NCBI GenBank assembly: GCA_963921825.1
Contig: OY997591.1
Span: forward strand, 55,777,031 to 55,841,030
DNA length: 64,000 bases
DNA from: Erodium maritimum
Taxonomy: Eukaryota > Streptophyta > Magnoliopsida > Geraniales > Geraniaceae
Direction: 5' to 3'
Part shown: one piece after another, positions 33,276 through 60,372 of the stretch
Layout of the letters: each line of letters opens with the position of its first letter
Position numbering within the stretch: the stretch's first letter is position 1
Translations under genes and position numbers: made by a program
Notes under the pieces: generated by a model
Database searches by the model: none
The model's input: the letters and a program-made list of their open reading frames with translations, nothing else
Told to the model about the DNA's origin: nothing

Positions 33276-34085
33276 TTGAGTTTTGTGATATTTTTTTTGA
33301 GGATAAACGAGTGGATATGATAAATAATAAGTGTTTACAATCAAAAGACCAATAAAACACCTAAATGACATAAATGAAAATGAGTTCTCAATAATAGAGG
33401 ATCATGACAGAAAATTAAAGAGATCAAGATACTAACTGCCTTACTGAAATGTCTGGAATGGGATACTGCGGTAGCGTCTGATGACATCGATACAACGAGT
33501 CCAAACTGGAAGTTAGGGTAGAGTAGACCCATTTCCAGAGAGAAACTACAGTGGACTGAATACTCCCCCAGGTTGCTAGCATGTGTCGTCCTCCCTGTAC
33601 TGATAGGGAAGTACCTTACTAGTTCTTGGTGGAACCTCCGCCACCTTACATCCAAAAGGGCGGTGAAACCGGTCAACCCCCCTCTAGACCACCTCAGTTT
33701 CATTCGGCGAGGCGAGGGTGCTTGAAACCCCCCGCTACTGTGTGTGATGCTCCTTCCGAATGAGTTGAAGCTTCTGATTTCGTTAACCCTTCCTCCTTCT
33801 TCGGGCGCTTTTTCCCAGCATAAACTAATGTAGTAGCCGATTGTCTTGGGTGACAATTCTGGTAATCCCGACGCCCTCCTGAGGGTCCCCTCCTACCGCT
33901 GGCCGCCTAACTAGTTCTTCACGACCGGGGCTCGAGTTATTGGTCCTGTTTTGCCTCCTTTCCTGACGTGGTGCCAGCGGGGCAAAAAGGCGAGTTGGAA
34001 CACCTGAGGATCCACCCGGGTATGCCCAATCTGTCCCTGGGACTGGGTTCTCATGTCAGGCTCTCACGAGGGTCAGCTGGGGACC

Positions 34086-34734
34086 TCAGGGAAGGACCCT
34101 TGCTCCCACCTTCCAAAGGGCAAACTGGAAATAGATGACCCGCACAACTACATCCAAAACAGTTGTCGGGAAATCGTTCATACGACACATGGAGATTGGT
34201 ACGTACCTAGGACTCAGTGAGTCGAAACCACAGTTGGCTCTAAAGGCGGGCCCGAATATCCACACGGATCCGAATGTGCATGAAATCCCCCCAACACATC
34301 CCATCTGTATCATTATCCATGGCCAGACAAACACCCAAAGCCCCTCCCAAGCGAAAGCCTACACCTCTGTTCCATGCTCCTACCAGAAGGTTAGAGATGC
34401 GAGCCCAAACCGAGAAGTGTGTCAAGAGCATATCTCTCGGTCTCATATGAGCTCGAAGGTCCGCGAAGATGACAAGGGAATTTTGAAAAGCCCATGATTC
34501 CCTTACTAGTACTCGAGCACGCTCTCTAGCCGTCTTGGAAAAGAAAGCCACTACCCCGTCCTCCAACGGTCTGGCTTCCACATGTCTCATGTGCCACAAG
34601 TCTTCCATCGAGGCTACCAATGTCTTTAAAAAAATCGTCGAGTGGTAAGGACTTTCGCAACGAGTGAAGAAGCGAAGTTTATCCCTCGTCCACAAACCTT
34701 TAAGGTTCCTCATCCTAAAACCTAGCTCTCCCAA
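34086..34734 (-). pseudogene. LINE ORF1 fragment with DUF4283-like domain
   Basis: Minus-strand reading shows KTLVASMEDLWHMRHVEARP, EDGVVAFFSKTARERARVL and ESWAFQNSLVIFADLRAHM. This is the DUF4283 pattern (G/W..l....f.F.f......vl..gPW.f....l.l). A downstream segment (VWARISNLLVGAWN, GKCWGDFMHIRIRVDIRAPL-like) is the usual post-DUF4283 part of these proteins. No zinc knuckle is retained. The reading is split by at least one frameshift near 34240-34330. Confidence 0.65.
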
Positions 34735-35089
34735 CCTGTCTGACCAACATAAGTTGCCCCCTTACACCGGATCGGTTTATCATAAGGCCCTCCCCAATTG
34801 GGAGGTTCGAACCCGATTGTTGCAGGGAAACCCGGCGGCCCATTCGCTTGGCCCAGGTTGACCCTGTTCCATGTTGGGCACCTTCGAAATTGACCCTAGC
34901 CTCCTCGGGCCATGATGCCTGTGTCTGATAAACCTCGGCCCAAAGACATTTTCCTAAGAGGCCCATATCCTACAGCCCAACAAACGAAGCCCTAGCCGAC
35001 TCATTTCTCTCACGCCGTCTCCAGGTTGTTCTCTCCCGTTGATCATCCGGTACCGGCTTAGTAGGGACTGTCGAAAGCCAGCTTAGTAG

Positions 35090-35295
35090 AACATTTAATA
35101 CCCCTTATAAACTGGTCACATACCATTTAATATCCCTTATGTATTGGTAACAGAACATTTAATACCCCTTATGAATTGGTCACAAATCATCAAAATGGCG
35201 TAAACTCGACCAAAATTTTGGCCACTGCATTACCAACACATAAGGGTGCTAAAGGAGTGTTACCAATATTGAAGGGGTACTAAAGGTAATTAACC
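35090..35295. mobile_element. MITE-like inverted repeat with internal tandem units
   Basis: The left arm (TTTAATACCCCTTATAAACT and later CCCTTATGTATTGGTAA) is inverted at the right (TTACCAACACATAAGGG, AAGGGGTACTAAA). The left arm is itself a near-tandem repeat of about 38-43 bases. No clear target duplication was found. Confidence 0.5.
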
Positions 35296-35297
35296 CA

Positions 35298-35547
35298 AGT
35301 AAAAAATTCATCAATCTGAAATTCTATTATCTTTGTGTGAAAAGTATGTTGTATAAATCATCTGTCATTTACACAAAATGAGTTGTTTGAGGTGAATGGG
35401 TTGAGAGTATCACCTACCATGGAAACATATCCTTGAGGGTGAGACTGAGGAAGATTACAGAGCTCGGAAAGGAAGAGTGTGAAGCCAATCAGGACCGGTG
35501 TAAGAAAGAGAACGAGACCAAAAGGGACCATCCAGAGCTGGGTGTTA
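35298..35547 (-). pseudogene. Duplicated 3' half of the small membrane-protein gene
   Basis: Nearly the same as 32470-32710: the second helix reads NTQLWMVPFGLVLFLTPVLI and the tail is altered by a short insertion. The copy includes 3' non-coding flank and breaks off sharply at 35547, where ORF1-like sequence starts. It lacks the start codon and first helix, so it is a partial genomic duplicate inside the retroposon. Confidence 0.75.
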
Positions 35548-35984
35548 AACAACCCCGCCCCTAGACCCTGCTCTGCTCGGCGTTGACGTGACCTAGGACC
35601 CCCCATCGGAGTGTACCGCACCAGTCCTCACGGCTGTTCTAGGAGGTGGCCCTGGTTTCTCCTTCCTCCCTTACCTCGAGAGGCCACCGATGAGTGTTCT
35701 ATCGCCTTGCCGGCGGAGAAGATATGGTGCTGGTTTCCCATCACCTCCCCTCTCAAGACTAGAAATACCTTTGTAGGAGACCGTGTTGAATCACGAGACC
35801 CTAAGGAGGGAGAGATCGACAGGGAGATTACCATCGTTCTTGCATTTGGACCCTCGCTGCTCGACGTGTGTTGACTGTCGGTGTTGGAGAGACTTGCAGC
35901 CGCCATGTTCGCTTAAACCCTAACTTTTAGAGAGAATATGTTTCAGAGAGAAGAGTCACATATGCGTGAGTTTTGAGATGATGA

Positions 35985-36144
35985 GAAAAAATCAAATAGA
36001 AATCACCTTTAACCTAAAAACTGTGTGAGCCTATCCATTTTGTAAATGGATGGATGAGATGGAATTGAGTGGTTGACTGCAAAAATACAACACTTTTTGG
36101 TAAGTGGTATGAGCTATTTAGTAAAACTATCATATTATTTTTTT
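35985..36144. other. Short intergenic gap
   Basis: AT-rich; nothing recognised. Confidence 0.3.
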
Positions 36145-36626
36145 GGGGTTACTCCATGTCCTAACGCCCAACTTTCAGAAATTGTTAAATCATAACCCTA
36201 TAAAACTGAAATTGCTATGTAGTAACGGTCTAACATCTAAATACACCAAATGTTTCTAATTTTAAACGGACGTTAACTTGACCAAGTCAAAAGTCGAGTT
36301 TGCCCTCAAATATGTTCTTCCTTCGGACGCTAACTTGGCCGAACTTCATCTTTTCGTGACCTCATCTCAGCTCTTCGAACTTCATCTCTTTGGGTCCGAG
36401 CTTCGAACTTCATCTCTTCGTGACCTCAGCTCGACCAAGCTCCATTATAAAATGAGTCACGTGAGACGCACGTGAGTCACTGTTCACGGAAACAGTCAAT
36501 TTAAACAATACTTGTTAATTTTTAATAATTCAGTTTTGAAATTTGTTACTATTTGACAATTTTCAAAAGTCGTGGTGCGGATTTGACAATTAAGTGTAGT
36601 ACGGCGTTAGGACATAGAGTAACCCC
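36145..36626. mobile_element. Mutator-like MITE, about 480 bp
   Basis: Terminal inverted repeats start GGGGTTACTCCATGTCCTAA at the left and match the right end at 23 of 24 bases. A 9-bp duplication (TATTTTTTT / TACTTTTTT, 8 of 9) flanks it, the length used by Mutator-like transposases. Inside, GAACTTCATCTCTT-type units repeat three times (36340-36415). It is non-coding. Confidence 0.75.
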
Positions 36627-36635
36627 TACTTTTTT

Positions 36636-37382
36636 TTACCAAATAACTAATTTCATCATTCCCGATTCGTTTAAACTCCGATTGATTTCAAATTTGCGCT
36701 AATATTTTTGTTTTTTCAAGATCTTTCTATCAAGATCAGTGAAGAATATATTTTGAAGCATGGAAAAAAATTTATTTAGGGGTTGATTTAAAAAAAATTA
36801 TATCTGGGTAATTTTTGTCAACACTTTACACTAGTTTTATCAACACTTTACACTTGTTTTATCAACACTGAACACTAGTTTTATCACCTCATTTTCCATA
36901 ATCGGACATGATTTTTATCACCTCATCACATGTTTTTTTATGAACATTGAATACTAGTTTTATCAACATTAAACACTTGGTTTATCCCTAAATTACATGT
37001 GTTTTATCACCCCCATCACATATTTTTTATCAACACTGAACATTAGATTTATCAACACTAAACTCTAGTTTATGATTCTTTTTATCCAAACTGAAGATGA
37101 TTTTTATCACCTTATCACATGTTTTTTATCACTTCAGTTTATGTTTTTTTTATCAACATTTAGCAATGATTTGATCACCCCAATATAAAACATTTATTAG
37201 TGAAGATTTATCAATACTCAATATTATTTTTATTACCTTGATATAACTTTTTATTTTTGTGCTTCAAATATATTCAATATGCTAGTTGATAGATAGTTCT
37301 TGGGGAAAAAATATTGGCGCGAGTTTGAAGCTAATCGGTGTTTAAACAAACCAGAAAAGATTAAATTAATGAATTGGTGAAG
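36636..37382. mobile_element. Fold-back element with degenerate arms around a T-rich repeat array
   Basis: The left arm 36636-36763 and right arm 37259-37382 are inverted copies, roughly 70% alike by eye (CGTTTAAACTCCGATTGATT against the complement of the right end, GTTTAAACACCGATTAGCTT). Between them lies an array of TTTTATCAACACTNAACACTAG-like units (about 20-26 bases, 36820-37240). Outer ends and target duplication are not fixed. It directly follows the Mutator-like MITE. Confidence 0.55.
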
Positions 37383-37570
37383 AAAAAATGGACACTTATC
37401 CACCGGGCACTATGTTATGACAATTATGTCCTTGCTTGTGTGAGAAAGGATGAAAATGACGTAAATTTGAGTAGGATTGAAGTGATGATGCGACATTATG
37501 ATGAATATTAGATATTAAGAATTGTGGTTAAGAAATAAAAAATTGCTCGAATAGAGCTCTACTAGGGTTT
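37383..37570. other. Short intergenic gap
   Basis: No feature recognised. Confidence 0.3.
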
Positions 37571-37574
37571 AAAA

Positions 37575-39800
37575 AACCGTTGTCGCCTCCCTTCTTCTCT
37601 CTTTTCTTTCTCCGCGCTTTCAAGCCTCCCGCTTACCTCTTGACAACCTCTTTTTCGGTCATTTCCACCCCTTCCACTATGGTCAGTACCAAATCCGCGA
37701 ATTCACGCATGGAAATGACAATTTCGGAGGCCCGTTCCTCGATCGGTAACGCCGACAAACTTCCGGATCTGAGTGCCACGCCACATGCAAGCCCGGTTCC
37801 GGGCAGTCCTCATCCATCGTAACCGTCGTTACCACTGATGGGGCCAACAGATGTCCCTCTGTCGTCCCTGACTCCATCGTCGATGTCGATCATGCCGTCC
37901 ACACCGACCTCTCTCCCAACGATAGGCCCGGTACAAACAAGCCCTCCCAAGCCGCCGTCTCTCCTAGGGATCACCTGGCCAAAACTGCAACTCCCTCTGC
38001 CTTCGACCCGGTGAAGGGGAAACTGAAAATGGCAGTCGCACCAGTGCACCCCACCAGATCCAAAGCAACGCCCAGGGAAGCATCATCCTCGGTGGCTCTG
38101 AGACCACCACGGGGGGTTCTTCGGCCGAGACCTCCACAACCGACAGAGGAAGATCCGAAGGAAGACGATGAGATAATCATCGTCCCGTCTGAAGTAGTCC
38201 CGGTTGGCCAGAATCAACACTCCCTCGCTGGTCTAATAGTGGGGGACAAACTCTACAATATATCGGCTCTATGTGGGATGATGATCTGTAGCTGGAAAAT
38301 CAAGGGGCTGGTAGTGGAGTGCCTCAATAAGGACATCGTCGCGTTCCATTTCCCGACAGCAGAAGCTATGAAGAACATTTGACATCGAGGTCCTTGGGCT
38401 TTCCATGGGTACCCGGTCTTACTGGTGCCTCTCCTCCCATGCACGCAACCGAGCTGAATAGTCTTTCGATTCATGGAGATTGGGGTCTGAGGTTTCAATA
38501 TTCCGGGGGATGGTCAGAACCCGACAGTCTATTCCATCCTTGCTAATGCCCTTGGTATTGAGGTAGTTTCTGCACCCATCCCGCCCCAGCGTCATTTGGA
38601 TGATTTTTTGTAGTTTCGGGTGAGTTTGATATGGACAGACCGCTGCGAAGACGGGTACACTTAAGGTTTACGGGCCACCGGGACTCCTCCATGGTGGAAC
38701 TGCATTATGAGAGCCTCCTGGGATTTTGCGCAAGGTGTGGTCGGTTGACTCATCAGATAGCGGAATGCCATGAAAATATCCCGGGGGTAAGTCGGGGGAG
38801 GTCTAGTTTACTGATTCTATCAGGGTGCATTTGGACCCGAATGTGGACATGCTGATACGGATTGGGGAGCACCAAGGGCGCCTAGGTTGCCTCCCGTGGA
38901 TGAACTCTTAACGACTCTCTCATTAGGGTCGGATAAGGAGTATCGGCATGGCAGGAACCTCCCAATGCTCCCGCCTCCAGGATTTAGGGCTCTGACATTG
39001 GCAGCGGAAGGGGAAGTGGTGACCAAGTCCGGTGACTTGGCTAAAGAATGTCTCAAGGAGATAGTTCCAGATTTTCATCAAGCGTATGTAGGATCGTTAG
39101 AAGGATTCGCAGGGATCACAAAGCCCGGTGACCTGGCTAACATCCTTAAGGATGAGGGCCTGCAAGCTTTTGCAACAAGACATGAGGGTAGCCTCCTACT
39201 AAGAGGAGGGAAGCGGAAAGAACCGCGGGATTCAGGGGATGACCCGGGACCGATGAAGACGAAGGCGACAAAGGTCAAGGGGAAGGGCAAGACGAGTCAG
39301 TGCTATACCCAGAATACCAAGATGAATAGGGCACTGGATCTCTAGGGATTCTCACTCCGACAGTTAGAGGATGAAGGGGATAGCGATGACCAGCAGGCGA
39401 GGGCTCTGAAGTAGCCACACCAGGGGCAATGAGAGGACCCTGGGAAGGGGGGAGGGGTGGTAACCCTATCTCCCTAGACCCGGGATGGGTAGCGCTTACT
39501 TGCCTCGGGAAGAAACTAGAAGCGTGGGCCTCTATTTATATTTCCTGTTGTTTTTTCTGTCTTTAGTTGTTTGGTGTTTGGACTATTTATATGTTTTGAA
39601 CTTGTTTGATAGTTTGGCTTTCCCTTTAATTTTGGGACGGTCGGACGGGATCTCAATTTTGTGTGTGTCTGTGAAGGCTAAGCAGACTAGTTCTACGGGT
39701 CCACGAGCGCCGGGTACCCTACGGGGGACCCGTACTATATTCTGGAGCCCAGGACTTCGGTCTTATTTAAACAATTTTTGTTAAGATGAGTTTTTTTTAC
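37575..39800 (+). mobile_element. ORF1-only LINE-derived retroposon (family B, copy 1)
   Basis: A C/T-rich 5' leader leads to an ORF1 (from ATG 37679) with DUF4283 and a CCHC knuckle. Then comes a 3' tail sharing GGGTCCACGAGCGCCGGGTA with two other copies. No endonuclease or reverse transcriptase lies between ORF1 and tail. The ends are approximate: I could not find a target duplication. Confidence 0.7.
37679..39415 (+). pseudogene. Retroposon ORF1: DUF4283 plus CCHC zinc knuckle (broken)
   Basis: From ATG 37679 the frame stops at about 37820. A second frame reads a basic region (GKLKMAVAPVHPTRSKATPR) and DUF4283: SLAGLIVGDKLYNISALCGM, WKIKGLVVECLNKDIVAFHF, then HRGPWAFHGYPVLLVPL after an in-frame stop at about 38380. 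A third frame has RRVHLRFTGHRD and the zinc knuckle FCARCGRLTHQIAEC (38728-38770). The C-terminal part (to 39343) is Lys-rich and holds two copies of a TKPGDLAN-like motif. Such proteins are thought to bind the retroposon RNA. The decay is ordinary (several stops and frameshifts). Confidence 0.7.
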
Positions 39801-39955
39801 AATTTTTAAAATAAAGATAGATTTTTATTAGATTTGTTTTCTCTACGCTTGTTACCTTGATTATGTTGTTTGTTTTGTATAGTCAGTAAGAGTAGGAAGT
39901 ATTAGTTCACAAACCCAAGACTAAGAGTACATAGCGAATTGAACCTTCTTTTTCC

Positions 39956-41176
39956 AAGTTTTGTGCGTTGTAGCGCTCTCCCTAGAACCCTAGGGTTGCC
40001 TCCCACAACCCTCAGGGGTAAAATATACCATCGCCGATCATTCCTTGATCGATGTGGTCTCCGGTCACCATTGCTCCTCATCCTCTCGCTGCGTCGTCCT
40101 CTCCCTAACGTAGCGTCGTCAAAAACCTTTCGCGGCGTCACAACCAGCTGCTTCTGTGTCACAGCGTCGCTTCCACGCGATTCGACCCCCTACAGCAGCG
40201 CCGATCACCTCCCACGTCCTCCACCACTCCGATCTACATTACGACCTACAATCTCACCACCGGCGTGCAACCTCCAACTACAACCATGACAACCTCTCAT
40301 CGGTTCATCCCCATTCTATTTGTTTCACGACTCTCGGTCCTCCCCCGCTCGATCACCACTGCCCTCCTTCGGCCCGATCATCGCCGCCATCCCATGGCCG
40401 AGTCTGGATCTGGCCCGCGTCAACGACGGTGCAACGCTCGTCGCCATCGCCCTCGGCGACGGGACCGTCCTCGGGGCGCTGGAATACTGCAACACAAGGG
40501 CCACGACGTATTTCACGCCGTCGCTCTGGCCATACCCGTCTATCTCCCAGTCGCTCGTCGGGATGAACGTCGGCCCCTCCAACTCCGGAGTAACGCTGAC
40601 CGCTCTTCAGCCGCTATTGTTTCGGATCTGAAGCAACCCTCGCCAGTCACGGCCATGCGCGGGAAGAACGAGCAGCACAGAGTTGGTTCGGGGCGAACCA
40701 TGATGAGCTCGCGAGGGACGTCGCTGAGGGACAATGAGGAAGTACAAGATTCACATACAGAGACAATTCAGCCTCCTTCGGAAAAATGAGAAGACCCGGC
40801 GGGGGTGGGAGGGTCCGTTTACGGACTATACCCACAAACCCGGGACTGCCGGTGTTGGGAGGTCTCGGGAAACCCGCACTCAGAGAACTCTATTTCCGCA
40901 TGCTTTCTGAATTAGGTCGTTTTTATTTGAGTTGTATTAGCTTGGTTTACTTTTGGTTTTTTCTTACCCTGTTTTGTATCGTTGAAATGTCGGTAAAGGG
41001 ATGTCCTGAGGTATTGTCTACGACATTAAGTAGGCTATTTTTATGGGTCCATGAGCGCTGGGCTTGCTACGATCGACCCAGACATATATGTGGAACTCAG
41101 GACGGTTACGCTCTACCATGTATGGTTTCTTTTTTACATTAATATACTTTGCCGGTTATCCGTTTCAAAAAAAAAA
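39956..41176 (+). mobile_element. Short retroposon of family B (copy 2, internally deleted)
   Basis: An 11-bp duplication CTTCTTTTTCC flanks it (39945-39955 and 41177-41187). It has a CT-rich 5' part with overlapping basic frames but no complete domain, and a 3' tail (GGGTCCATGAGCGCTGGGCT, ending CCGGTTATCCGTTTC) with a ten-base poly(A). At 1.2 kb it lacks DUF4283 and the knuckle, so it keeps only the two ends of the longer copies. Confidence 0.8.
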
Positions 41177-41187
41177 CTTCTTTTTCC

Positions 41188-41495
41188 CTTCAAAACATTT
41201 AATACATGCAATCATGCATACAAGTGGCCAACAGGTTTTTCAGTCTTCTGTTTTGTCTTGTGAACATAAAATATATTTTAATAATCAGGCATCGTACTTT
41301 CATAAAACATGTTTACATATGTCCCATCGGTTTCAAACTAGTTGGTAAGTTCATTTAAGAAAAATCTAAAGTTGTAGTCACAGTAACCGTCCCCCCAAAA
41401 AATTTACGCAAATCAATTAAACATAGATAAATACTAAAAAATATCCCTCTTGCATATCTATTTTGTTTAAAGGAAAAACCTTGTATCCTAACCCC
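41188..41495. other. Intergenic, nothing recognised
   Basis: About 300 AT-rich bases without recognisable features. Confidence 0.35.
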
Positions 41496-41791
41496 ATTTG
41501 AGCTTTGTTTTTCAATTCATAATCCAGCTTTACCTTTGATGATATTTCTCAACTGTCACCTTTCAATTTTTTGCAGAAAGTATCGTTTACCGTTTATTTT
41601 GACGATTCCGTTAGTTTTTTTGCCACGTGTCACTTCACCGTGACGACTCGTGGCCGACACGTAGGCAAAAAACTAACGGAATCGTCAGTTTTGACGATTT
41701 TTGATACTTTCTGCAAAAAATTGAAAGGTGATAGTTGGGAAATGTCACCAAAGGTAAACCTGGGTTAGGAATTGAAAAACAAAGCTCAAAT
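41496..41791. mobile_element. Fold-back MITE, about 296 bp
   Basis: Two arms of about 120 bases are inverted copies (ATTTGAGCTTTGTTTTTCAA left, complement right; TTTTTTGCAGAAAGTATCG repeats inward). A short GC-rich centre carries CCACGTGTCACTTC. No coding sequence and no clear target duplication. Confidence 0.8.
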
Positions 41792-42285
41792 GAACGTCGG
41801 GTACGAGTCTCATCTTTCTCTACCATCGCCGTCTTCCATCCAGCGGTCACTAGATGGCATCGACTCACTGGAGCTATTCGACTAATGGCTTTGAGATCTG
41901 GGGGAGGACGGTAAGATGGGGTTTCGTTCCACGACACCCTAGGTTTGGTTAACCCGGCAAATTAAGACAACTGGTCGAAAATACCAGAACGCTCCACCAC
42001 GAAAGCTATGAGTTTCAGAAGAACTGGGATCACATACTCCTTAACTTTTGTGTTCATTATTGTGTTTCTGTGTTTATTTCATTTCTACAATATAAAGTGG
42101 GTTTTGTGACCCTGAGCAATCTGTTATATGTTGGAGCAATTGCATTGAATAAAAATCTTGTCCCCCGATTAAAAAAAGGTGGTCAAATGTTATATTAAAG
42201 GGTTAAATGTAGAAGCATATTTTTATGTACGGGTCACACACAATAAGTTACCCAAAATTTGAAAGTGTTAATGAAATATTTTAAA
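41792..42285. other. Intergenic; possible retroposon tail near 42175
   Basis: No gene. TTGCATTGAATAAAAATCTT followed by CCCCCGATTAAAAAAA (42145-42177) resembles a LINE-type 3' end, but no element body is recognised. Confidence 0.3.
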
Positions 42286-42289
42286 TTTG

Positions 42290-42545
42290 GTTGTCTTTTA
42301 TATGTCTTTATGAGTTGGTCACATATTATTCATGTGTTAGAAATTTGTCACATATCATTTACATATCTTTGTAAACCAAAAGTGTTAAATGAAGGACCTT
42401 AAGTTTTGGTCATATGACTTTATGAATTTGTTACATATTATTTACATGCCTTATAAGTTGGTCATATATTATTTACATTTTTAATGAGTTGATCACAAAT
42501 CTTTTACATGTCTTATGAATTGGTATGATATTATTTACATGTTCT
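42290..42545. repeat. Degenerate AT-rich tandem repeat, about 36-42-base units
   Basis: Six or seven units of the form ATGTCTTATGAGTTGGTCAC followed by ATATTATTTAC. The motif resembles the TTATGAATTGGTCAC units at 35100-35185. Confidence 0.65.
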
Positions 42546-42866
42546 TAAGCGAGACAAATATTTTAAAATAGTTTATTATTCGTGACCAATATCTTTGGAT
42601 AATATCTTATATTCAATTCTATATTAAATTACAACAATAATATAAAACTAACGGTCTTGACAGTGTAATGTCTTTTACCAAATTTTGAAAAAGCTTTTAT
42701 TTGATATTTAATTTTGAACATCAATTAAGATTTTTTTTGAATGAAAACATCATTACTTTATTTTAATCAACAAGATAAATATACAAATTAAACCTCTATG
42801 AGGAGAAAAAACATCATTAACTTAAGTATACATTAATGGAGCTTGAGGAGGAGAAAACTAAAACGT
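42546..42866. other. Intergenic, nothing recognised
   Basis: AT-rich, no feature seen. Confidence 0.3.
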
Positions 42867-42880
42867 AATGATTATACACG

Positions 42881-48100: not shown

Positions 48101-48109
48101 CTAACTCAA

Positions 48110-49273
48110 TCGTGATTTGCTTCCCCAGGTTCACCATGACTTGCTCTGGTGACACCTAGGGTGGCGACGGCTCAAACTGTGGTGGAGTACTCGGAGTATT
48201 TCACGATCACAACGGTGACGGAAAGAACCCAAAGCCTGATCCGTGACAGACATTGGTGGCGTCGGAGCGTGGTGGAGGCATCCTCCAGGGTCCTTCGTCA
48301 AGGCTGGACGCGACGACGGAGTAAGGTTTGGAAACCCTACGAAGGAGTTGTTGCTCTAGGGCATGACCTTGAGGTCGGTGGTCGGCCGTTTCTGCCCCCA
48401 AGGGAGGCTATGCTGGTATCCATGGTGAACCATACAAGGGGATGGACACGACAGCAGCCGAGGGGATGGCTGCCTCTAGAGTTGCTCGGGGGACCGAGGA
48501 CCGTGGAGATGGCGCTGCCCTGAATGGGAGGCTTGAAGACGGTGCTGTGATGACCGGGACTCTGGGGGGAGCTAGTTCCGACCCACTGATATTGGATCCG
48601 AGACCTAAGGAGGGGTTGCCTAGAGGACATGGTGCCCGTGTGACAATGGACCCGAGACCTAACTTGGGACCTCGTTCTCATACATGGGGCACCAGCCGAC
48701 AACCCGCAATAACCCTCCCTGGGTGGTCCGCCCCAAACCTGCCGGACTTTGTGCACACGAAGATTCGGAAGGAGCCAGGTGATGAACGACTCTCTATTGA
48801 TTCGGTTGCTGGTCCCATACTCCGGGAGCGTGCGGAGTTTGGAGGTGGAGGACGCACGCATCTAGGGGCGCGATGTATTGAAGTTCCATCGGCCATTCTC
48901 CTTGGGAGTTCCGTTGATGGAGCACGGAAGAGGATGGTACCAGCTCCTTTGTGGGGAGCCATATTATAGGCGGGGAAGAAGCCCCGCCGGGGGAGATTAT
49001 GTACCGCTTGAGCATCGGAGACTGGCCCTAGGAGGGGTCTCCTTGACGATGCTTTGTCTCCCACCATCACCATTACTATTGAGGTCCCTCCGGATCTCTG
49101 GTACCCCGCTCCTCCTCACCGTCTTCTCTCTCTGCCCAAGAGGCATCACAACAACGTATGTGACGGTTATGATAGTAAAAGGATCAGTGAATCAATGTTC
49201 GTTCATACTGATCTTTTGATGATCGGGGATCCTGTTCTCCGGTGCAGGATAATGTAATCGATTGCAAGTAATA
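48110..49273 (+). mobile_element. ORF1-only LINE-derived retroposon (family A, copy 1), 3' part
   Basis: The 3' part (48960-49273) closely matches 60045-60300 of the element at 58119: GGCGGGGAAGAAGCCCCGCC, then GCATCGGAGACTGGCCCTAG, then CTCCCACCATCACCATTACT. An open frame (48442-48966) reads as a Gly/Arg-rich C-terminal ORF1 region without a recognised domain. The last 26 bases plus poly(A) are at 55087-55112, beyond the inserted solo LTRs. The 5' end is not defined. Confidence 0.6.
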
Positions 49274-50356: not shown

Positions 50357-50371
50357 GGTGAGCTTTCGCTC
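50357..50371 (-). promoter_or_regulatory. Conserved LTR hairpin, inner solo LTR
   Basis: The minus strand reads TGAGCGAAAGCTCAC followed by a T-rich tract and CACAG, about 270 bases before the LTR end. Confidence 0.6.
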
Positions 50372-51035: not shown

Positions 51036-51227
51036 GGGTGCACAACCAACACCACACAATGGCATAGCAAACACAATATAACGACTCGTAATGTCGACCA
51101 GGTTTAGCACAACACGTCACATAGAATTCATGTCAATAATCACGCTTACCAGTATGACATACCAACCACGTTCATCGGTCTATCACTCACCCGATCATAC
51201 CACAGGGCACAATCACATCACATTCAG

Positions 51228-51312
51228 GCATTCATTCAATCAATCACAATACGAATCAATCATTCATTCATTCATTCAATCAATCATAACAAGGATCATT
51301 CATTCATTCATC
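51228..51312. repeat. CATT/AATC microsatellite
   Basis: Runs of CATTCATTCATTCATTCAAT and similar, interrupted, inside the inner solo LTR. Confidence 0.85.
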
Positions 51313-51404
51313 AATTATCTAGTTTAGTACGACTCTTATATTAACCTAAAGACGAAACATGCATCGGCACTCAATTCAAATAATCACAATCACCGACAAC
51401 CCTA

Positions 51405-51600
51405 AGGCTCGACATGGCCATTCTACCAGCACGACAATTTCCCAGAGTATTGAAAGCGGTTATCTAGAGAACCACATCCTATATGCATACTAGACTCATC
51501 CGGTTATTTATGTAATTAACAGCGGTTATTCTAGTGAATCACATCCTATATGCATACTAGGACCTTTCCGGTTATTATTATCTTATAGGCATGCTACTTA
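51405..51600 (-). repeat. Duplicated CCGGTTATT / CATATAGGATGTGATTCACT motif in the inner solo LTR
   Basis: Two tandem units of about 75 bases with CACATCCTATATGCATACTA. The outer LTR carries the same pair in inverted orientation at 53790-53990. Confidence 0.75.
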
Positions 51601-53784
51601 CGTTAGTTAAATTAGCAGATGAGTTTAGTACTTTTCCCTACCTCAAGAAGATCACAACAGCTACGTCTCCTAGCTGCTGACGTTCGGGCCTAACTCCGGT
51701 CTTCTCAGGCGAAGTCCAAGTCTGGGTTTAACTTCGGTCTTCTCGGGCGAAGTCCAAGTCTAGGTTTAACAGGTAAACGTCCAATCAGTCCCGATAGTCC
51801 AAAGGTCCTCAGAATTGTCCAAATTGCCTTTAATTAACCATTTAAGTTAATTAAATTAATTTAATTAATTAATTAATCTGATTTTAAAATAATTAAATCT
51901 TTAAAACCGGTCTAACCCGGATCCGAACATGAACCCGAGTCCAGACCCGATCCAGACCCAGTCCAGAACCCAGACCCGACCAGACCCAGGACCGACCCGG
52001 ACCCGGCTCCAGACCCGACCAAGACCCGGTCCAGACCCGAGTCAGGACCCGTCCTCTCGGACCTAGGCCTGGCCCGGCCCTAGACCCAACCCGGATCCAG
52101 TCTGGCCCAAGGCCCAACTGGCTCGAGATTGGTTCCTGGCACGATGCCACTTCTGGCCTAAGGCCCAGTCCGTTCGGGTTTGAGTCTGGTCCTAGCATGG
52201 CAAGGTCGAGGGCGGCTAGGGTTCAGCTCCGGTAGTGTCGTCAGGTGAGATAAGGCGGGTTTCCAACGGTGGTGACGGCGTTAGTGAACTTAGAGGGGCG
52301 AGGGGAGGGTGTTGGTGTGATTTCCAGGCTTCTCCGTCCAGATCTGACGGCGAGAAGCTTCGCCGGCGCGAAAATGTCAGAACTGGAACTTGAGAGCTCC
52401 GGCGAAGCTCTCCAACAAAACCCGTCCACCTCGAGCTCGCGTGACCGTGGATTTAGGGGAAAGGATTGCTGGGGAAGACGAATCTGGTCGAGAAATTGGC
52501 TCACCGATACTGGTTCTTCTCGATTCCGGTACGGCGAGGCTTGAAAGAGGAAGGGGCGGCGGCGTGGCTTTTTGTTTCGTTTCGACTCAGCGAGGAAGAA
52601 GGGAAGGGAGCTTATGGTGTTGTGTGGTCGTTGGTGGAAGAAAAAGACGAAGAAGAAGAAGAAGGTGGAGGGAGGTCGGAGAAGGGAAGCGGCGAGACTG
52701 GGTCAGGTTCGCGCGTGAGAGGAAACGAGAGGAGGAAGAAGAAGCTTTGGGAGCCGTGCCAGTGAATGAGAAGCTGAGGAGACGCGAGTCTAGGGTTAGT
52801 CGCGATTGTTTGGGCCGCGTGCGAAAATGGGCTCGATCATGGTCTCTGACCGACCTGGTCGTCCTGGTCCAACCCACTCCTCCTTTCCCTCTTTTTTATT
52901 TATTTTTCTTTTCTTTTTCTTTTGAAGTCGATCAAATTTTCCACTCGATTTCCAACCACGACGTTTCAAGTCGAATAAATTAATATTTAAACCTTTTAAC
53001 TCGGGGCGGTCTTTACAGAAATTGAAGCTCTAAAGCTTAAAAATGGAGTTATGGAGAACCTAGAACTAGTTAAGAGCTTGTTGGAGAATTTTGGATATTT
53101 TTCCAGCGACCGGAGGCTCGCCGGAATTCGGCCACCGGTTAAGGAAATGACCGGCCATGGTCCGGTCACCCTTGGAAGGGACTGGCCATTGTCCGGCCAC
53201 CCATGAACCATGGCCGGCCGGCCGGTTGAGCTACACACAGCCATGTGTGGCCGTGGGGCCCACATGGCCGTGTTTTGGTGGTTTTGAAATTGTGACGGTC
53301 GTTATTGACCCCCAGGATGATGTTTTCACACCCGGAACGAATTATGGAGGTGATTCCTAGACTTTCGGAAAAAGCGATTAGAAACTTAAATTGCGAAATT
53401 GGGAAGGCTCGGACTCCGGAATTTGTTTCCGTCAGGTGCATTGGAACAATTAAACTTAATTAGGATGGTTAGAAACAAAAAGGGGAAGTTTCGGAGTCCC
53501 GAGGGACGTTTTCCCGATTCCGGGCGAAATGGGCCTCCTAGGCCCATTTTGACGAGTTGTGCAATTGGGATTAGTTTGGGTATTTCCCTCTTTAATCCAC
53601 ACTTGACTTAGCATCAATTCGTGTATGGCTTGTAATCTTAGACTTTGGACCCGAGCGTGACGGGAGAGGAGACGGTTGGATCTCGTGAAGTGGAGGGGGA
53701 AGCGAGCCAGGACGTCAGCAGCTAGGAGTTGATCGTGTTTGCTTTTGAGGTAGGGATCGTAGCGAATACCGGTTCGATTGTGGA

Positions 53785-53990
53785 AAGTTACTAGTATGCA
53801 TGCTCGTTAATAATAATAACCGGAAAGGTCCTAGTTTGCATATAGGATATGATTCACTAGAATAACCGCTTTCAATTACATTAATAAACGGACGAGTCTT
53901 AGTTTGCATGTAGGATGTGATTCACTAGAGTAATTGCTTTCAATTCTTGGGAAATTGCCATGCTGGTAGAATGGCCATGTCAAGCCTTAG
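53785..53990 (+). repeat. Duplicated CATATAGGAT motif in the outer solo LTR
   Basis: Two units of about 70 bases (GTCCTAGTTTGCATATAGGA and GTCTTAGTTTGCATGTAGGA), inverted with respect to 51405-51600. Confidence 0.75.
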
Positions 53991-54784
53991 GTTGTTTGTT
54001 GATTGAAATGCATGATCTTTGATTGAGATGCATGATGTGTGACTAAGTGTCAATAAGATTAAGAACCATGTTATGATGTACTCGGTGTAGCATGTTGTGA
54101 TTATGTGTAGGCAAGTGTGCCGTGTTTGATATGAAGTGAATCCTTGGTTGTGATATGATCGGGTGAGTAATAGACTGATTTGTGTGTTATGGTGAGTTGG
54201 CTCGGTTGGTATACCGTGGTCGAACTATGGCTTGGTGATACGTGTTATTCTCTTGATGTGTGTTCCGAGAGGAGGCGAGTCCGGTATGATACTTACACTG
54301 AGAGAGTATGCCAGTGTAGAGTATCGAGGACGAGGACGGTTTAACCGTTACCCCGATGCTATGTGGTCCGGGAAGGCGTACGACTGAGGTGTGTGCCTGT
54401 CCGGTATGTGTGAGGTCCCGATTCTACGTGATGGGAAGACGTCCGACTGAGGGATTTTCGATCTGGGATGTTACCCCGATTCTACGTGACGGAAAGATGG
54501 CGGGACCGATGCTTCGTGTTCCGGTACGATATAAATGGGACGGATGCGATAGCAGGAGATGTTGGGATTGGTTGTACTAAGTTATGTATTGTTCTGCTGT
54601 GTGTGTTGTGCGTGCTGATTGGCTTTGTGCATTGTATTATTTGTGATTTTGATCTTACGAAGGTGATTAGTGGTTGGTACTTGCCCCGTGGGCGTTGTTG
54701 ATAGCTATGCTTTAATAGTATGCCCTAATTGGACGGTTACTCATGGTATTGAACTGATGTTCATAACCTTAACTACTTTTCCTA

Positions 54785-54801
54785 CTGAGCGAAAGCTCAC
54801 C
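54785..54801 (+). promoter_or_regulatory. Conserved LTR hairpin, outer solo LTR
   Basis: TGAGCGAAAGCTCACCCC followed by TTTACCTCGTTGTCTTTCAG, about 280 bases before the LTR end at 55081. Confidence 0.6.
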
Positions 54802-55086
54802 CCTTTACCTCGTTGTCTTTCAGGTCTTGAGCGGGATGTGTACTAGCTGGATACTCGATGCTTGGGAGCTTGCGAGAGTCCTAGGCTAGATTGTTTAGCG
54901 ACGTACTGTTCACCTTTTCATACTTTTTTACTACGTACTTTTTACCGAGCTGTTGGCTCGTGTTATCTTTTGGAGATTTAAAATTGCTATCTGAAACCCT
55001 TTTTACTATTAAACTGCTTTAATTATCTTCTATTTAAGTTCACGTTTCGAGTCCGGTCAAAACCGAATTTGGGGCGTGACATAATA

Positions 55087-55112
55087 AAATTGCACCCTTC
55101 GTTTAAAAAAAA
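55087..55112 (+). mobile_element. 3' terminus and poly(A) of the family A retroposon (copy 1)
   Basis: AAATTGCACCCTTCGTTT and an A tract correspond to ACAATTGCACATTTCGCTC plus A tract at 60339-60366. Confidence 0.7.
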
Positions 55113-55287
55113 TTCGTTCCTACCACTCGTTATAGATAGAGACAAAATTATATGGACCAAAAAACCATCAAAGCAAAGGCATCTAGCAGATAAGCTTTTA
55201 TTATATCATCCAAAGTATTATAGTCAAAACTTGAATATGATTTTTAATTGACTTTTCATAACTATTTGGGACAAATATATTCACGGA

Positions 55288-57696
55288 TTTTATTTTTGAA
55301 TCGGGTAACCGGAGAATAGTATTAATACCCAAAGGTAATCAAACAAGAAATGGCGTAAACGCCTTGGGTTCCAGATATGTGTCCGGACTGGCCGTAACAG
55401 ACCCAGTGCTCGTGGACCCATAATAATAGCCTACGTGAATTCGTAGGCAAAAACTGAAGATAACTCGTTACCAGCGTCTCAAAATAGCGAGACATAAAAT
55501 AAAAGTACCTAAACAAAACAAACGATTAATTGTTTCAGAAATAATGCAGATAACCATAAAGCAAATAAAAGAGATGAGATGTTGGTGCAGGCTGCCCGGG
55601 ACCTCCGAACACTGGTTGTCCCGGGTCTGTAGGTATAGTCCGACATCGGCTCAACCCACCTTTGTCGGGTCGGGTCATTCCTGTATTGGAGGCTGCCCTG
55701 CCTCCACCTGCTTCTCCTGGTCCCCTTCAGAGTTGTCCGGCTTGGTGAAATCTGGTGGGAGGGTCGGATGATCCAGCGATTTCTTAGGCCCCGACGGTCG
55801 AGCATACAACGACCCACTCCTTGTCTGCAGGGATGATTTCTTTGCCTTCACCCGAATAGGGCCAGCTTTCCCAAGGCTTCCTTGGGGTCTTTCTCCTTCC
55901 ATATCCGAATCCCTAACTTGTCTACGGATTCGACAGGGGCAGGAAGGTTTCCAGCATGGTGGATGTTAGCCAGATTGTCAGGTTTTGTAAATCCCGGTGG
56001 CCTTCCACAGGCCCGACCCACTCCATCCTGCAACAAATTGACTACCCCTCCTAAGGTAGTCCTAGCCAGAGCGTCAGACTTCGAAGAAACGTCTACAGCA
56101 GAAAATCCATCCCCCATGACGACCTCCCTAGATCGGATCATATGGTTCAGAGAAAGCTCATTCAGGAGATCATCAACATCCGACGGTTCCAGGGAATAGG
56201 GGAGTATGCCATACCGTCTTCAACAACCTATCTTCATCCAACTGCCATGGTACCAGAATCGTTGTGTCATATCGGATCTCCTCCCGACCTATTCCCGGTA
56301 AGTGAATCGTACACCCCGTAATCCTGTGTGTCATCCTCCCACACTTGCGACAAAGATCCGTGAGCCTCTTATATTGTAGCTGAATTAGTGAGGAAGTGAC
56401 GGTTTCTGGGAACCGAAGGCGGAGTCTTCTCCAAAGAGGCTGGTTCAGCTCCATCTGTACCCGCATCCGTAGAAACATATCATACCGCCGGACAAAAGGT
56501 ATTGGAACTGACACCACCTGGGTACCAATGATGGCAGCAATAAGGCCCCGGACCTCCGGGGTCCTGGCCCCTAACGGGACGTTCATTACTCGGACTCCAA
56601 GCTCAATGTGATTGAACTCAATCTCGTTTGCCTGAACATACGCCCTGAGGGGTACCAAGAGCACTGGGAAGCCCTTGAAAATCCACGGCCCCCGATGACG
56701 GATATTCTCCATCGCCGCAGTAGACGGGAAATGATATCCCGTAACCTCCGGGGACATGTACTCAACCTGAATGTCGCCTACTTTCCATTTCTACAACATC
56801 ATTGCGCATACAGCATTATGGTTATTAGTCCGATCTCCTGCAACCCAGGCTGCCAGCGAGAACTGGTAAGTCCCCTTTTTGATCACCGGGACCGCTTCCA
56901 CCGGGACAACCACTTCATCGTCTTCATCCTCCCAGTCCGGAACCGGAGAAATACGGACCAAACTCACCCCCCCTGACGCGCAGGAGATCCAATCCCACTT
57001 GCCGATCGACTAGTCGATCCCGTTGCATGACCTACCGGGGGACGATACCTGGACCCGTCCGCCGGCGACTGTGGTCGAGAAAAGGGCGCCGGATCCTTGT
57101 GAATTGTAACCGGTTCCGGCGGGCTCCGTCTAGGATGCGACGCTGGCTGCAGCTCGATTAAGGCAAGGGTCCCGGTCGACACTCCGCCCGGTTTATCCTT
57201 CAGCGAGGTCAGATTTCCAGCAGGGCGGCTTTGTTCAAGCGGACGAAGAGGAGTGTCAATATGGGTCGCCGGAAATGTTACCTCAGGCAAAAACCTCGTC
57301 GTAGACGGGGGCTAGGGCTGCTGAGGATCATCACTGGGCCAGATCTGGGCAGCGGCTTCCATTTTCGGGCAAAGGAAGCGTGAGGATGCCGGATATGATG
57401 AGAACAAGGACATGGACGGCAAGGAAAGCGCTCTGGTGTTGCCGGAGCCGCTCGGATGGGCGCAGGAGTTCGTGAAGAGAAGCTCGACGGGACCGGAGGG
57501 AGAAAGAGCTATGAATTGTGGGAGTTGCAGGGGGGACGTTGCCAGGTAGCGAAGCCGGAGCTCAGACAACGACGACGTGAGGGCGTGGGGGATGGGCGGC
57601 GAGAAAACCCTAGCTAAGTAGAGAGAAAACCACTGTGTAGAGGTAGCGGATCGCTTTCAAATCTTGGAATTTTTAGTATCAGTAGAGGATTAGTTA
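55288..57696 (-). mobile_element. ORF1-only LINE-derived retroposon (family B, copy 3)
   Basis: On the minus strand a G/A-rich leader and ORF1 (57362 downward) lead to DUF4283 and a zinc knuckle, then a C-terminal region, then the family B tail (GGGTCCACGAGCACTGGGTC, ending CCGGTTACCCGATTC) and a short A tract at 55303-55293. There is no endonuclease or reverse transcriptase. A target duplication is probable: ATATTCACGGA (55277-55287) against GTATTCACAGA (57697-57707), 9 of 11. Confidence 0.75.
56173..56757 (-). pseudogene. Retroposon ORF1 fragment: DUF4283 plus CCHC zinc knuckle
   Basis: This 194-residue frame is open throughout. It starts TGYHFPSTAAMENIRHRGPW, with KGFPVLLVPLRAYV (second half of DUF4283). 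It continues through VRGLIAAIIGTQVVSVPIPF and the WRRLRLRFPETVTSS block, then the knuckle CRKCGRMTHRITGC at about 56312-56354. Upstream frames (57362-56964) supply a Pro/Ser-rich N-terminal part; the frame is broken between them. The downstream part (56141-55675, other frames) carries two FTKPDN(L)-type motifs like those of copy 1. Probably an RNA-binding ORF1 protein remnant. Confidence 0.75.
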
Positions 57697-57707
57697 GTAT
57701 TCACAGA

Positions 57708-58106
57708 ATTATATAATTTATTGTCTTTCATATATATTTTTTTGAAACGGTCTTTCATAAATTCATACTGTTGTAGTTCGCATTCTAAATAAATTAATGT
57801 GAGTGCGCAATATCAAATTATTAATGGCATTGGCCGGTCGCTCGTATGGTATTCAGCGAAAAAGCCGAAATAAAGGCCATACGACAGCAACCCCTTCGTT
57901 TTGGAGGGTCTTAATAATGGCAGGCATGAGTAGCCAAGTTGGAGTGTCATCTCCTATCATCCACACACAATGGACTAGCCAATCGTTATATATAATCTCT
58001 GACATGCTTTACATGCTTCCTAAGTTCTGACAAATTTGTTAGAGGATGTTTTATTATAATGAAAATAAGAATTTATATTTTTTTTACGTAAGCAATTAAT
58101 TAAGAA
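57708..58106. other. Intergenic, nothing recognised
   Basis: About 400 bases, AT-rich; a short plus-strand frame (57803-58030) has no recognisable domain. Confidence 0.35.
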
Positions 58107-58118
58107 AAATAACACAGT

Positions 58119-60372
58119 GAGACTCTCTCCTAGTTTTAGCCGCGCGAAGTTATGGTGTTTTCTTCTATTTCTATCGTTGTCGACATGCCTTCTACGGTGG
58201 TTCTCGTCGTGCTTCCTGTCGTCGCTCCAGCTGATGCTGCTCTCCTAGCATTAGCTTGTCCCCTGCAGACAGCTCACGGTGCGGGGGAGAAGAGTCGCTG
58301 ACGAAGAAAACCCAAGCCGACTAGGGTTCCCCCTACCTCGCCGTCTGCAGTGGAGATTTTGGCTCTCCCTCCTCCAGGAAAACCCTCGGATGAGATCTCC
58401 TTCTCATTATGGCCAGCCTCCCCGGCTCCGATCGTGTAGCCAAGACGTGGGAGGCATGTCACCAAACGACGCCCCATGGTTACTTCCTCTGCAAGTAAGG
58501 GCCTTCTAGCCCTCCCTCCTCCTAACCCTTGTTCACCCCCCCCCCCCATACCAGTCACGACCTCGCTCTGACTGTTCCCCAATAAGGTGGTGCGGTTATT
58601 ACGGTTTCGCCGCCGTCGGATCCTCTCTAAAGCGGTGCGGTGGCTAGGGTTTCATCACCATTGCGTCATGAGCATGCCCTGCCCCCCCCCCCCCCCCACT
58701 ATGGGTGCATAGGTTAAATCGTGACTACGCCGGTCTATAGCCCTCCTAGGGCACCACCGCTGTAGCGAGACCCGGCTGAGGGAAAGGCCTCGATGGAGGA
58801 ACTCCCCAGGTCGGCAGTGGTGGCTCTAAGGTTAGGACGATGCCTCCTCGATAAGGATAAGATCCCGCTTATCCCGACGTGCCTTGTAAAGCCGAAAAGA
58901 ATGACGTGGGATCAGTCGCGGAACCTGACTACGGAGGAGTTTGCTCCACCCTCAGCTGACTTGATCTCGGATCTTCAAGGTCTACGGGACGGTCTTTCGT
59001 CCTGTTCATTGGAAGATGAGGCGGAGGTCGAGGTGTTTGTCCCATCTTCCCGGGCAATATCGACGGCCATTGCCCGCCAACAATGGGGGATGTTGGGAAA
59101 ACTATGGTCCTCTAAGACCCCTCGAAAGAAAACTCTCCTGCGTATCATTACGAATGCATGGGGGAAGGCTGCTGAGGGCTTGTGATTAAGGACCTAGGGC
59201 CGAGGCTCTTTGGGTTTTACTTTCGGTCCTCTAAGGTTCGGGCGTGGGTCCGAGGCAATGAGCCCTGGTACTTTGACGGCCAGGCTCTGCTTCTCGGTGA
59301 TCTGGACCCGTGTGCTAGGGAGATGTCGGCTGTTGACCAAGTGCAATTATGGGTGCACGCTAGGGGTTTGCTTCCTCTGGTAAGGACAAGAGTGACGGGT
59401 ACCTCTATCGGGGACGGGCTGGGGGCATGTGTGGAAGTCCCATGTGATAAGTGGGGCATGTGCTGGGGTGGAACTGTAAAGGTTCGCTTCTAGCATCTCA
59501 TTGAGAGGCCGCTCTGGAGGGGACTGATACTTCGACTCAAGGAATTTCCTAAGCCAATCCACATTGAACTCACCTATTCCAAGCTTCCAAGCTTCTGCTA
59601 CAACTGTGGTAGACTTGGCCATGACTTGAAGGAGTGCACATGGGCAGTCAAAGGCCCCCCGCGATTTGGCTCCTCTATGCTGAAGTACCAGAGGGATAAG
59701 AAGATCAAGGCTATGCGATAAATTGGGGAGAGATTGATCGGTCACCTAATCCCAATGGCGTAACCCCTAAGGGCACCTTGACCCTAGATAGCCCCCCCCA
59801 GGTTATTTCAAGCTCCGTGCCTCCTGGTCTAGAGACTCGGGGTATGACCCGTTTGGAAGCCATTCAGTCCCATGCTGGCTCGATCTTGGGGGGCCCACCA
59901 TCTTCCTCTGGTGAGGTAGGTGGTGCAACGTGTGGAGGTCTGGGGAGAAAGGAGGTTGCAGTCCCGACACCCACTGCGGTAATTGGAGAGGGAACTGGAG
60001 CAATCAAAAGGTCAGTTGCTGGAGTACCTCAGGAGGAGCAGGTCAGGGCGGGGAAGCAGCCCCGCCAGGGGAATGAGAGGTAGGAGGAGCATCGGGGACT
60101 GGCCCTGGGAGGGGTCCCATGTAGATGCTTTGCCTCCCACCATCACCGTTGCTGAGATCCTATATTTCCGGCACCCTTCCCTCTCTTCGTATTCTGTCCT
60201 TGCTTATATGGCTTTCAAATATTGTATGCAACGGTTATAGTGATAAAATGTTCAGCGAGCCATTGCTCTTTCTGTCTGACCTTAATGGCCTGGGAGCATG
60301 TTCCTTGGCACACATCAATGTCATGATATAAATTTAGTACAATTGCACATTTCGCTCAAAAAAGAAGAAGAT
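58119..60372 (+). mobile_element. ORF1-only LINE-derived retroposon (family A, copy 2), best-preserved copy
   Basis: Flanked by AAATAACACAGT (58107-58118) and AAATGACACAGT (60373-60384), 11 of 12, with a purine-rich A tract at 60355-60372. It holds a leader with two C runs (58536-58547 and 58682-58697), an ORF1 with DUF4283 and a CCHC knuckle, a Gly-rich C-terminal frame, and a short tail ending ACAATTGCACATTTCGCTC. At 2.25 kb it has no endonuclease or reverse transcriptase. Confidence 0.85.
58793..59721 (+). pseudogene. Retroposon ORF1: DUF4283 plus CCHC zinc knuckle (near-complete)
   Basis: Starts at ATG 58793 (MEELPRSAVVALRLGRCLLD). DUF4283 spans about residues 85-190: ISTAIARQQWGMLGKLWSSK, then after a frameshift near 59180 IKDLGPRLFGFYFRSSKVRA, NEPWYFDGQALLLGDLDP. 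A linker (VQLWVHARGLLPLVR) follows, then an in-frame stop at 59491-59493, then RPLWRGLILRLKEF and the zinc knuckle CYNCGRLGHDLKEC (59596-59636). The frame ends at TAA 59719-59721. Another frame (59778-60083) carries a Gly/Ser-rich acidic tail. In plant L1 elements this two-domain protein binds nucleic acid; here it has no ORF2 partner. Confidence 0.8.

Follow-up and report, generated by a model that had tools for sequence, protein, structure and literature searches.

What kind of element runs from the first open reading frame (ORF1) of a long interspersed nuclear element (LINE) straight into a noncoding tail and poly(A)? The question is raised by four elements, A to D, in a 64,000-nucleotide (nt) stretch of Erodium maritimum DNA (the window; GenBank assembly GCA_963921825.1, contig OY997591.1), which comprises bases 55777031-55841030 of contig C4 in the genome searched here (763 Mb, 40 contigs). 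An earlier note, made from the sequence alone, had described the elements as ORF1-only retroposons of several families, comparable to mammalian HAL1. The data obtained in this study make it very likely that D, C and B, together with the older A, are nonautonomous LINE families of the HAL1 type, derived from plant L1-clade LINEs that lost ORF2.

All four of the claimed ORF1-bearing elements were found to be present, each with decayed gag-like ORF1 sequence. Their main features, in window coordinates, are as follows; R1 is the covariance model of the tail considered further below.

33291..35965, minus strand: element A, belonging to an older DUF4283 family that has a tail type of its own; approximately 35078-35541 is private to the window copy.
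37551..39815, plus strand: element B, one member of an ORF1-only family with homology to C (15 copies compared, window copy included); the 5' limit is provisional.
39689..39815, plus strand: structured element in the tail of B (R1, 94.9 bits; window B absent from the model).
55288..57657, minus strand: element C, one copy of an ORF1-only family (24 copies compared, window copy included).
55290..55427, minus strand: structured RNA element in the tail of C (R1, 146 bits; this sequence was among the R1 training set).
56176..56790, minus strand: open piece of C with DUF4283 and zf-CCHC_4 (Pfam).
58107..58118, no strand: left target duplication of D; the right copy is at 60373-60384 (11/12 identical, read directly).
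58119..60363, plus strand: element D, one copy of an ORF1-only family (28 copies compared, window copy included).
60047..60066, plus strand: inverted repeat GGCGGGG/CCCCGCC at the end of the D ORF1, occupying the place of the LINE ORF1/ORF2-junction repeat GGGTTGC/GCAACCC.
60074..60076, plus strand: TGA closing the ORF1 frame of the D family, as read in the majority-column frame.
60077..60363, plus strand: tail of D, its final ~95 nt similar to the 3' end of LINE type I.

DUF4283 had been assigned to all four elements and a CCHC knuckle to three. Pfam matched pieces of A to DUF4283 (E = 8.9e-16) and pieces of C and D to both DUF4283 (1.9e-10 and 1.8e-8, respectively) and zf-CCHC_4 (1.4e-6 and 1.4e-8), while B is included by homology to the DUF4283-CCHC region of C. 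Two frames of B tested with Pfam gave neither domain; a CX2CX4HX4C motif is readable by eye in its broken frame. As had also been claimed, inspection by eye of ORFs of ≥120 amino acids (aa) and of translations of the four elements revealed neither endonuclease (EN) nor reverse transcriptase (RT), and Pfam found neither in six further pieces (two each from B and D, one each from A and C).

When the genome was searched with the window copies, many copies of D, C and B were found to run from ORF1 directly into a common tail. For D, scoring covered 53 matches, in 40 loci, out of 4085 first-look candidates, and the D tail was reached in 38 of the 40, the main pieces being 81-88% identical to the window copy. 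The remaining two break off within ORF1; downstream of the knuckle in one of these, at a distance of 15 kb, lies a D tail. For C, 39 loci were scored from 2736 candidates (C1:47756570 and C1:47762359 being taken as one locus), and 32 extend to query base 2300 or further. Ten near-full-length copies of B were found beyond that of the window, spanning query ≤21 to ≥2132; L072 and L073, distant relatives of B, were left out of every count. These numbers bear out the claim of multiplied families rather than single fragments. A is an older, patchier family, with a few copies covering query 9-424 and 889-2675 and many partial ones, and a mean pairwise identity of 75%, compared with 83-84% for B, C and D. 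Mean terminal branches, in substitutions per site, were 0.087 for D, 0.063 for C and 0.079 for B. At plant substitution rates of 0.65-1.3e-8 per site per year, these branches correspond to roughly 5-13 million years.

The comparison of copies also corrected several limits. The 5' limit of C was moved to 57657 (24 of 38 other C loci begin at query 35-47), and those of B were revised, with its tail reaching ~39815 and its 5' homology extending at least as far as 37551. Most other D copies have ~13 further 5' bases (CTCTCTCAACTTT) compared with the window copy. In A, a ~465-nt stretch (~35078-35541) is not common to other copies, L010 and L011 having ~125 nt instead, and part of this stretch recurs at 32472-32709. 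Among the four elements themselves, blastn gave two short matches only, B-C and B-D.

Insertion was analysed by comparing the two flanks of each copy, in 28 copies of D and 24 of C, against a null of flanks taken from different copies. Duplications scored ≥9 in 12/28 D copies against 2.4% of mismatched pairs, and ≥10 in 9/24 C copies against 0.2%, with matches up to 20 nt long. The duplication AAATAACACAGT/AAATGACACAGT flanking the window copy of D (58107-58118 and 60373-60384) was verified at 11/12, and a 5'-truncated copy, L043, carries one of 17 nt. The expectation that each copy would have its own target duplication was therefore borne out above the null in D and C, but over half of the copies in each family lack a clear one at their age. 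Such duplications and 5' truncation are the ordinary marks of LINE-type retrotransposition. Together with poly(A), the duplications (D, C) and the truncated L043 indicate spread by target-primed reverse transcription, and D and C insertions are dispersed over genome sites.

These results leave an origin by unrelated chance internal deletions, or from 5' fragments of ordinary LINEs, extremely unlikely. Such an origin would fit the decay of every window copy and the patchiness of A, and one locus, L117 (described with the LINEs below), resembles a single internal deletion by eye. However, many copies have the same structure and common ends, and in D and C their own duplications; as a general explanation, chance deletion is refuted for B, C and D by copy number, common ends and, in D and C, duplications.

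The coding capacity of the source elements was examined in majority frames, from which alignment columns with ≤50% occupancy were dropped. D, C and B each gave a single frame without a majority stop, of 642, 645 and 616 codons, respectively, ending just ahead of the tail; the longest runs in other frames were 138, 134 and 194. By these frames, the sources of D, C and B encoded a LINE ORF1, with DUF4283 and CCHC in C and D. The longest majority frame of A was 367 codons. Variants were then classed as shared (in ≥20% and ≥4 copies) or private (one copy), all others and columns <70% filled being dropped. Private variants, which are decay after insertion, were spread evenly over the three codon positions (D 408/373/385, C 331/290/326, B 266/253/284). 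Shared variants, which are changes in the source lineage, were enriched at position 3 in C relative to private ones (106/91/174, p=3e-5), and the shared transversions of C taken alone numbered 39/33/63 (p=0.016). These data demonstrate codon-level selection on ORF1 in C. In B, a synonymous excess was observed in shared transversions (17/31 versus 75/301, p=0.024). A search for protein homologues with a C ORF returned nothing at E≤1e-3.

B and C were further compared after 225 of 1794 aligned columns that were out of phase had been dropped, a 70% majority being required in both families. Fixed differences numbered 184/165/240 at 430/447/395 sites, or 0.43/0.37/0.61 by codon position. A single match of the C profile to B begins at profile position ~730 and continues through ORF1 and the tail as far as the 3' end. 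Because the homology runs through ORF1 and tail, the common ancestor was probably already without ORF2, and B and C therefore probably share an ORF1-only ancestor. Part of the constraint would then have acted on an ORF1-only element.

Whether ORF2 ever precedes these tails was addressed with motif scans (28-mers, ≤3 mismatches), which located 513 D tails, 87 D knuckles, 1321 C tails, 138 C knuckles and 245 LINE-I 3' ends; control scans with backward-read patterns gave 0 sites. The tails far outnumber the knuckles, so the remainder must belong either to truncated copies or to different bodies that carry the same tail, elements E and F below among them. Knuckle-tail distances were taken for the first 100 of the 513 D tails, the first 100 of the 1321 C tails and the first 100 of the 138 C knuckles. 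A D knuckle lay ≤20 kb upstream of 43/100 listed tails, 42 of them at 396-566 nt and one at 15 kb, and a C knuckle lay upstream of 27/100, 25 at 875-924 nt and the others at 2.5 and 7.3 kb. In a LINE retaining ORF2 the spacing would be roughly 4-5 kb. With zf-RVT sites as the ORF2 marker, none of the 100 listed D tails and none of the 100 listed C tails had a listed site ≤3 kb upstream, but since the list stops at the 150 best out of 12,902 candidates and is rich in LINE I, these zeros are weaker than they look and are supporting evidence rather than proof. In the control, 25/60 LINE-I ends had a listed site within that distance (minus-strand control distances read ~757 rather than ~996, since site starts were used). 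The earlier note had named unique copies, or tails found only behind a full ORF2, as outcomes contrary to its reading, and the linkage and zf-RVT scans returned neither. The multiplied unit contains no ORF2, as 38/40 D loci and 32/39 C loci run to the tail and the linkage distances agree.

The same distances bear on a second alternative, in which each copy would derive from a full-length LINE transcript with ORF2 spliced out, so that an ORF1-only source gene never existed. Human L1 SpIREs are a precedent for spliced L1 by-products. Fixed splice sites would give the same junction in every copy, the LINE 3' ends examined number only 30, and three C loci end just before the ORF1 stop. However, 0/43 D and 0/27 C knuckle-tail pairs are spaced at 3-6 kb, as they would be in a parent retaining ORF2 (the longer distances being the one at 15 kb in D and those at 2.5 and 7.3 kb in C), the ORF1/ORF2 boundary is the end point of 0/40 D loci scored, and the C variants common to several copies carry codon-level selection. 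Splicing is thus an unlikely source of these copies, and families propagated from ORF1-only sources remain the preferred explanation.

The relationship of such families to autonomous LINEs was approached from both ends of the missing ORF2. The best 150 DUF4283 matches in the genome include many long open frames. Eight long intact DUF4283 ORFs were sampled, and each was followed by EN-like ORF2 sequence; the possibility of young ORF1-only copies among them was rejected, as 8/8 run into an EN-like ORF2 start. In the two tested with a whole ORF2 start, Pfam identified Exo_endo_phos behind the DUF4283 ORF (L112, 2.9e-9; L115, 3.2e-12). Seven of the stretches contain the junction; in these, the stop of ORF1 and the start of ORF2 overlap (ATGA), beside the inverted repeat GGGTTGC TAA GCAACCC or a near variant. 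The end of the B ORF1 aligns to this junction in 7/8 stretches (E 8.6e-5 to 0.012), and that of D matches it, weakly, also in 7/8 (E 0.065-2.8).

On the other side, LINE types I and II have an RVT_3 (RNase-H-like) domain ahead of the 3' end (L081, 1.3e-19; L087, 2.7e-15). Tail profiles were built without window B and without the tails of early-ending copies. The D-tail profile matches the final ~95 nt of LINE type I, to poly(A), in 8/11 type-I copies, and the best match reached 14.5 bits, compared with ≤4.6 bits in 101 kb of reversed and shuffled controls. The match is nevertheless modest, as only 3 of the 8 matching copies have E<0.01 (L084, 8.3e-5; L082, 1.5e-4; L100, 0.0017; five others, 0.1-6.5) and the copies are not independent. 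D therefore looks like a LINE-I-type element after the loss of nearly all of ORF2, an account that does not extend to the ~200 nt separating the LINE-like portions at either side of the tail.

In all, 30 LINE 3' ends were read, of which 20 had a run of A's at the expected place. By eye, most of these LINEs have only ~30-40 nt between the end of ORF2 and the A's, a 3' untranslated region (UTR) far shorter than the ORF1-only tails. No same-strand match of the B/C or A tail profile with E<0.1 was found at these 30 3' ends. An A-tail match beside L082 was rejected, being on the opposite strand and in the flank, and the only match of the D profile in another type (L085) was on the reverse strand with E 4.4. 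A search for a parent of D by walking 5' from one LINE I copy ended when that copy proved to be 5' truncated. The proposal that the tails would lead to an autonomous partner was thus fruitful for D, with LINE I as the candidate, but yielded no partner for B/C/E or A among the 30 ends. Likewise, the description of these elements as parasites of autonomous LINEs is supported for D by the modest LINE-I match, whereas for B/C/E and A we still infer it.

Two further observations were made among the LINEs. L117 (C2:34324832-34325381, behind the DUF4283 ORF at C2:34323732) has a 466-codon open DUF4283 frame, after which an EN start is joined to an RT end (by eye); the stretch was without a Pfam match. 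It would be a LINE with an internally deleted ORF2, and perhaps the kind of first step that leads towards ORF1-only elements. In addition, a tandem repeat of ~22 nt (TTTTATCAACACTTTACACT) at window 36790-37160 also occurs directly behind the ORF2 end in L089 and may be the tail of another LINE type.

The junction and tail comparisons also bear on a third alternative, that the copies are retrocopies of a domesticated host DUF4283 gene and their source is cellular rather than LINE derived. DUF4283 and CCHC can occur outside LINEs, and no autonomous LINE with the same ORF1 was met among those read, both of which would suit a host gene. Such a source is very unlikely, however, as the frame ends at sequence that matches the ORF1/ORF2 junction of the sampled LINEs, well in B and weakly in D, and the 3' end of D is like that of LINE I.

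Three tail types had been claimed, and the same three were observed: one in B and C, one in D and one in A. Two further elements of the window extend the first two.

40199..41174, plus strand: element E, a ~975-bp repeat with a B/C-type tail; the single open frame tested was without a Pfam match.
48918..49258, plus strand: element F, a second D-type tail, preceded by sequence resembling the end of the D ORF1.

The tail match between C and E covers ~390-450 nt, and B, C and E have a common tail. Its final ~138 nt contain 16 pairs in three helices, with 93.2% of cells paired, and a shift of 1-3 columns lowers pairing to 23-53%. Both sides have changed in 44 cells, compared with 19.9 in shuffles, and the consensus folding energy is lower than in any of 100 column shuffles. 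Since the double changes are mostly differences between B and C, they represent few events. The B/C tail thus contains covarying stems. A spacer hairpin of 5 bp was observed as GGGCG/CGCCC in 16/23 copies of C and as AGGAC/GUCCU in 8/12 of B; it was looked for in E and not found. The R1 model finds B, C and E in the window. In 23 LINE loci it gave no significant match (best E 0.55, at L108), and an Rfam scan of window 33000-61000 at gathering score gave no match. In a genome search with E, the match begins at query 374-465 and extends to 1352 or further in 21/39 other scored loci, 12 of which begin at 374-397. E is possibly a user of the B/C tail that resembles a short interspersed nuclear element (SINE), its tested open frame being without DUF4283.

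Several observations weigh against the preferred explanation. No copy is intact, the longest single-copy frames being 451 aa in D, 477 in C and 326 in B. Outside C, shared variants have no significant codon bias: the counts are 51/47/64 in D (p=0.11; 8/7/5 for transversions, p=0.48) and 67/49/77 in B (p=0.24; 22/10/16 for transversions, p=0.75). The B profile matches C in two pieces. Among the C loci, 7/39 end before query 2300: three fall short within the tail (2055, 2103, 2115), one at 1553, and three end 55-87 nt ahead of the ORF1 stop (1932, 1951, 1964). The loci in this last group are C1:146363415 (plus strand), C9:10783321 (minus) and C2:32869326 (plus). In the tail, two of the five covariation measures do not beat shuffles (double-change pairs, 6 versus 5.7; pair types, 23 versus 20.7). 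The modest D/LINE-I match and the limits of the zf-RVT list belong here as well. Finally, neither profile nor covariance model gave a partner for B/C/E in the sampled LINE 3' ends, and no autonomous parent with the same ORF1 was found among the LINE stretches read.

A mechanism consistent with these data can be proposed. The loss of ORF2 would have left a 5' UTR, an open ORF1 (DUF4283 and CCHC, ~600 codons), a stop at the old ORF1/ORF2 boundary, a ~270-400-nt tail and poly(A). The ORF1 protein would be made in cis and would coat or bind its own RNA, and the EN/RT of an autonomous LINE would act in trans, selecting the RNA by its 3' tail. Target duplications and, at times, 5' truncation would result from insertion of the copy by target-primed reverse transcription. 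The RNase-H-type LINE I was probably the donor for D.

Among known systems, the closest comparison is HAL1 (half-L1) of mammals, which, according to the cited sections, encodes ORF1p only and arose several times (PMC5753468). In the guinea pig, as the cited sections have it, HAL1 retained ORF1 for ~29-44 Myr, read there as a need for ORF1p in cis and ORF2p in trans (PMC3627910). To the extent described there, the families are alike in being LINE derived and multicopy, in having retained ORF1 and lost ORF2, in comprising more than one family and in having kept ORF1 coding capacity for a time. They differ in the plant host and in a structured B/C tail that is also found on E, a repeat in which no DUF4283 was found. 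Mammalian L1 ORF1p consists of a coiled coil, an RNA recognition motif (RRM) and a C-terminal domain (CTD), whereas the ORF here is of the DUF4283/zf-CCHC_4 type and not of that found in the mammalian HAL1 clade.

SIDEs of Drosophila are described in the cited part of their report as short internally deleted R2 and R2/R1 elements in which a 5' ribozyme is joined to the 3' end, at ribosomal DNA sites (PMC3414825). On that description, they too are nonautonomous LINE derivatives formed by internal deletion that retain a 3' end for the LINE machinery, and SIDE hybrids occur. Unlike R2-type SIDEs, the present elements retain the whole ORF1, lie at dispersed sites and gave no Rfam match in the part of the window scanned. 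The EKA genes of the fungus barley powdery mildew, as far as the cited part describes them, derive from LINE ORF1 as co-opted truncated LINE copies (PMC4641428). They share with the present case numerous ORF1-derived copies in one genome, but here the copies belong to retroposon families that have tails and duplications. In plant SINEs with LINE-like 3' ends, the LINE machinery is borrowed by way of that end, a usage that E may resemble; unlike them, the B, C and D elements had a ~600-codon ORF. Titles and beginnings of abstracts in the open-licence PMC literature yielded no plant family of ORF1-only LINEs, Repbase and subscription journals being outside this scope.

Other repeats were noted in the window. 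Nested long terminal repeat (LTR) retrotransposons, by the look of the repeats, occupy 4130-17948: an inner pair (5560-6927/11986-13353, 99.3%) flanks copia-like ORFs, and an outer pair lies at 4130-5507/16668-17948 (~96%). A 2-kb repeat pair (23946-25931 and 62042-63989) is 85% identical, with tandem repeats at its end. A 152-nt inverted repeat with a 24-nt spacer at 41480-41807 is a foldback or miniature inverted-repeat transposable element (MITE)-like element.

B and C, with ORF1, and E, with no recognisable ORF1, have the same tail, of which >1000 copies exist genome-wide. In a broader reading, to which we give even chances, a small number of structured 3' tails that can be transferred may have been the basis on which a whole guild of nonautonomous LINEs evolved in this plant genome. 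LINE enzymes would recognise the tail as their unit, with ORF1p selected and acting in cis and EN/RT supplied in trans. Families with a selected ORF1 would mean that a different type of RNA-binding LINE protein can also merit keeping in cis while the polymerase is borrowed, and the covarying tail is a concrete candidate for the recognition element of a plant LINE reverse transcriptase.

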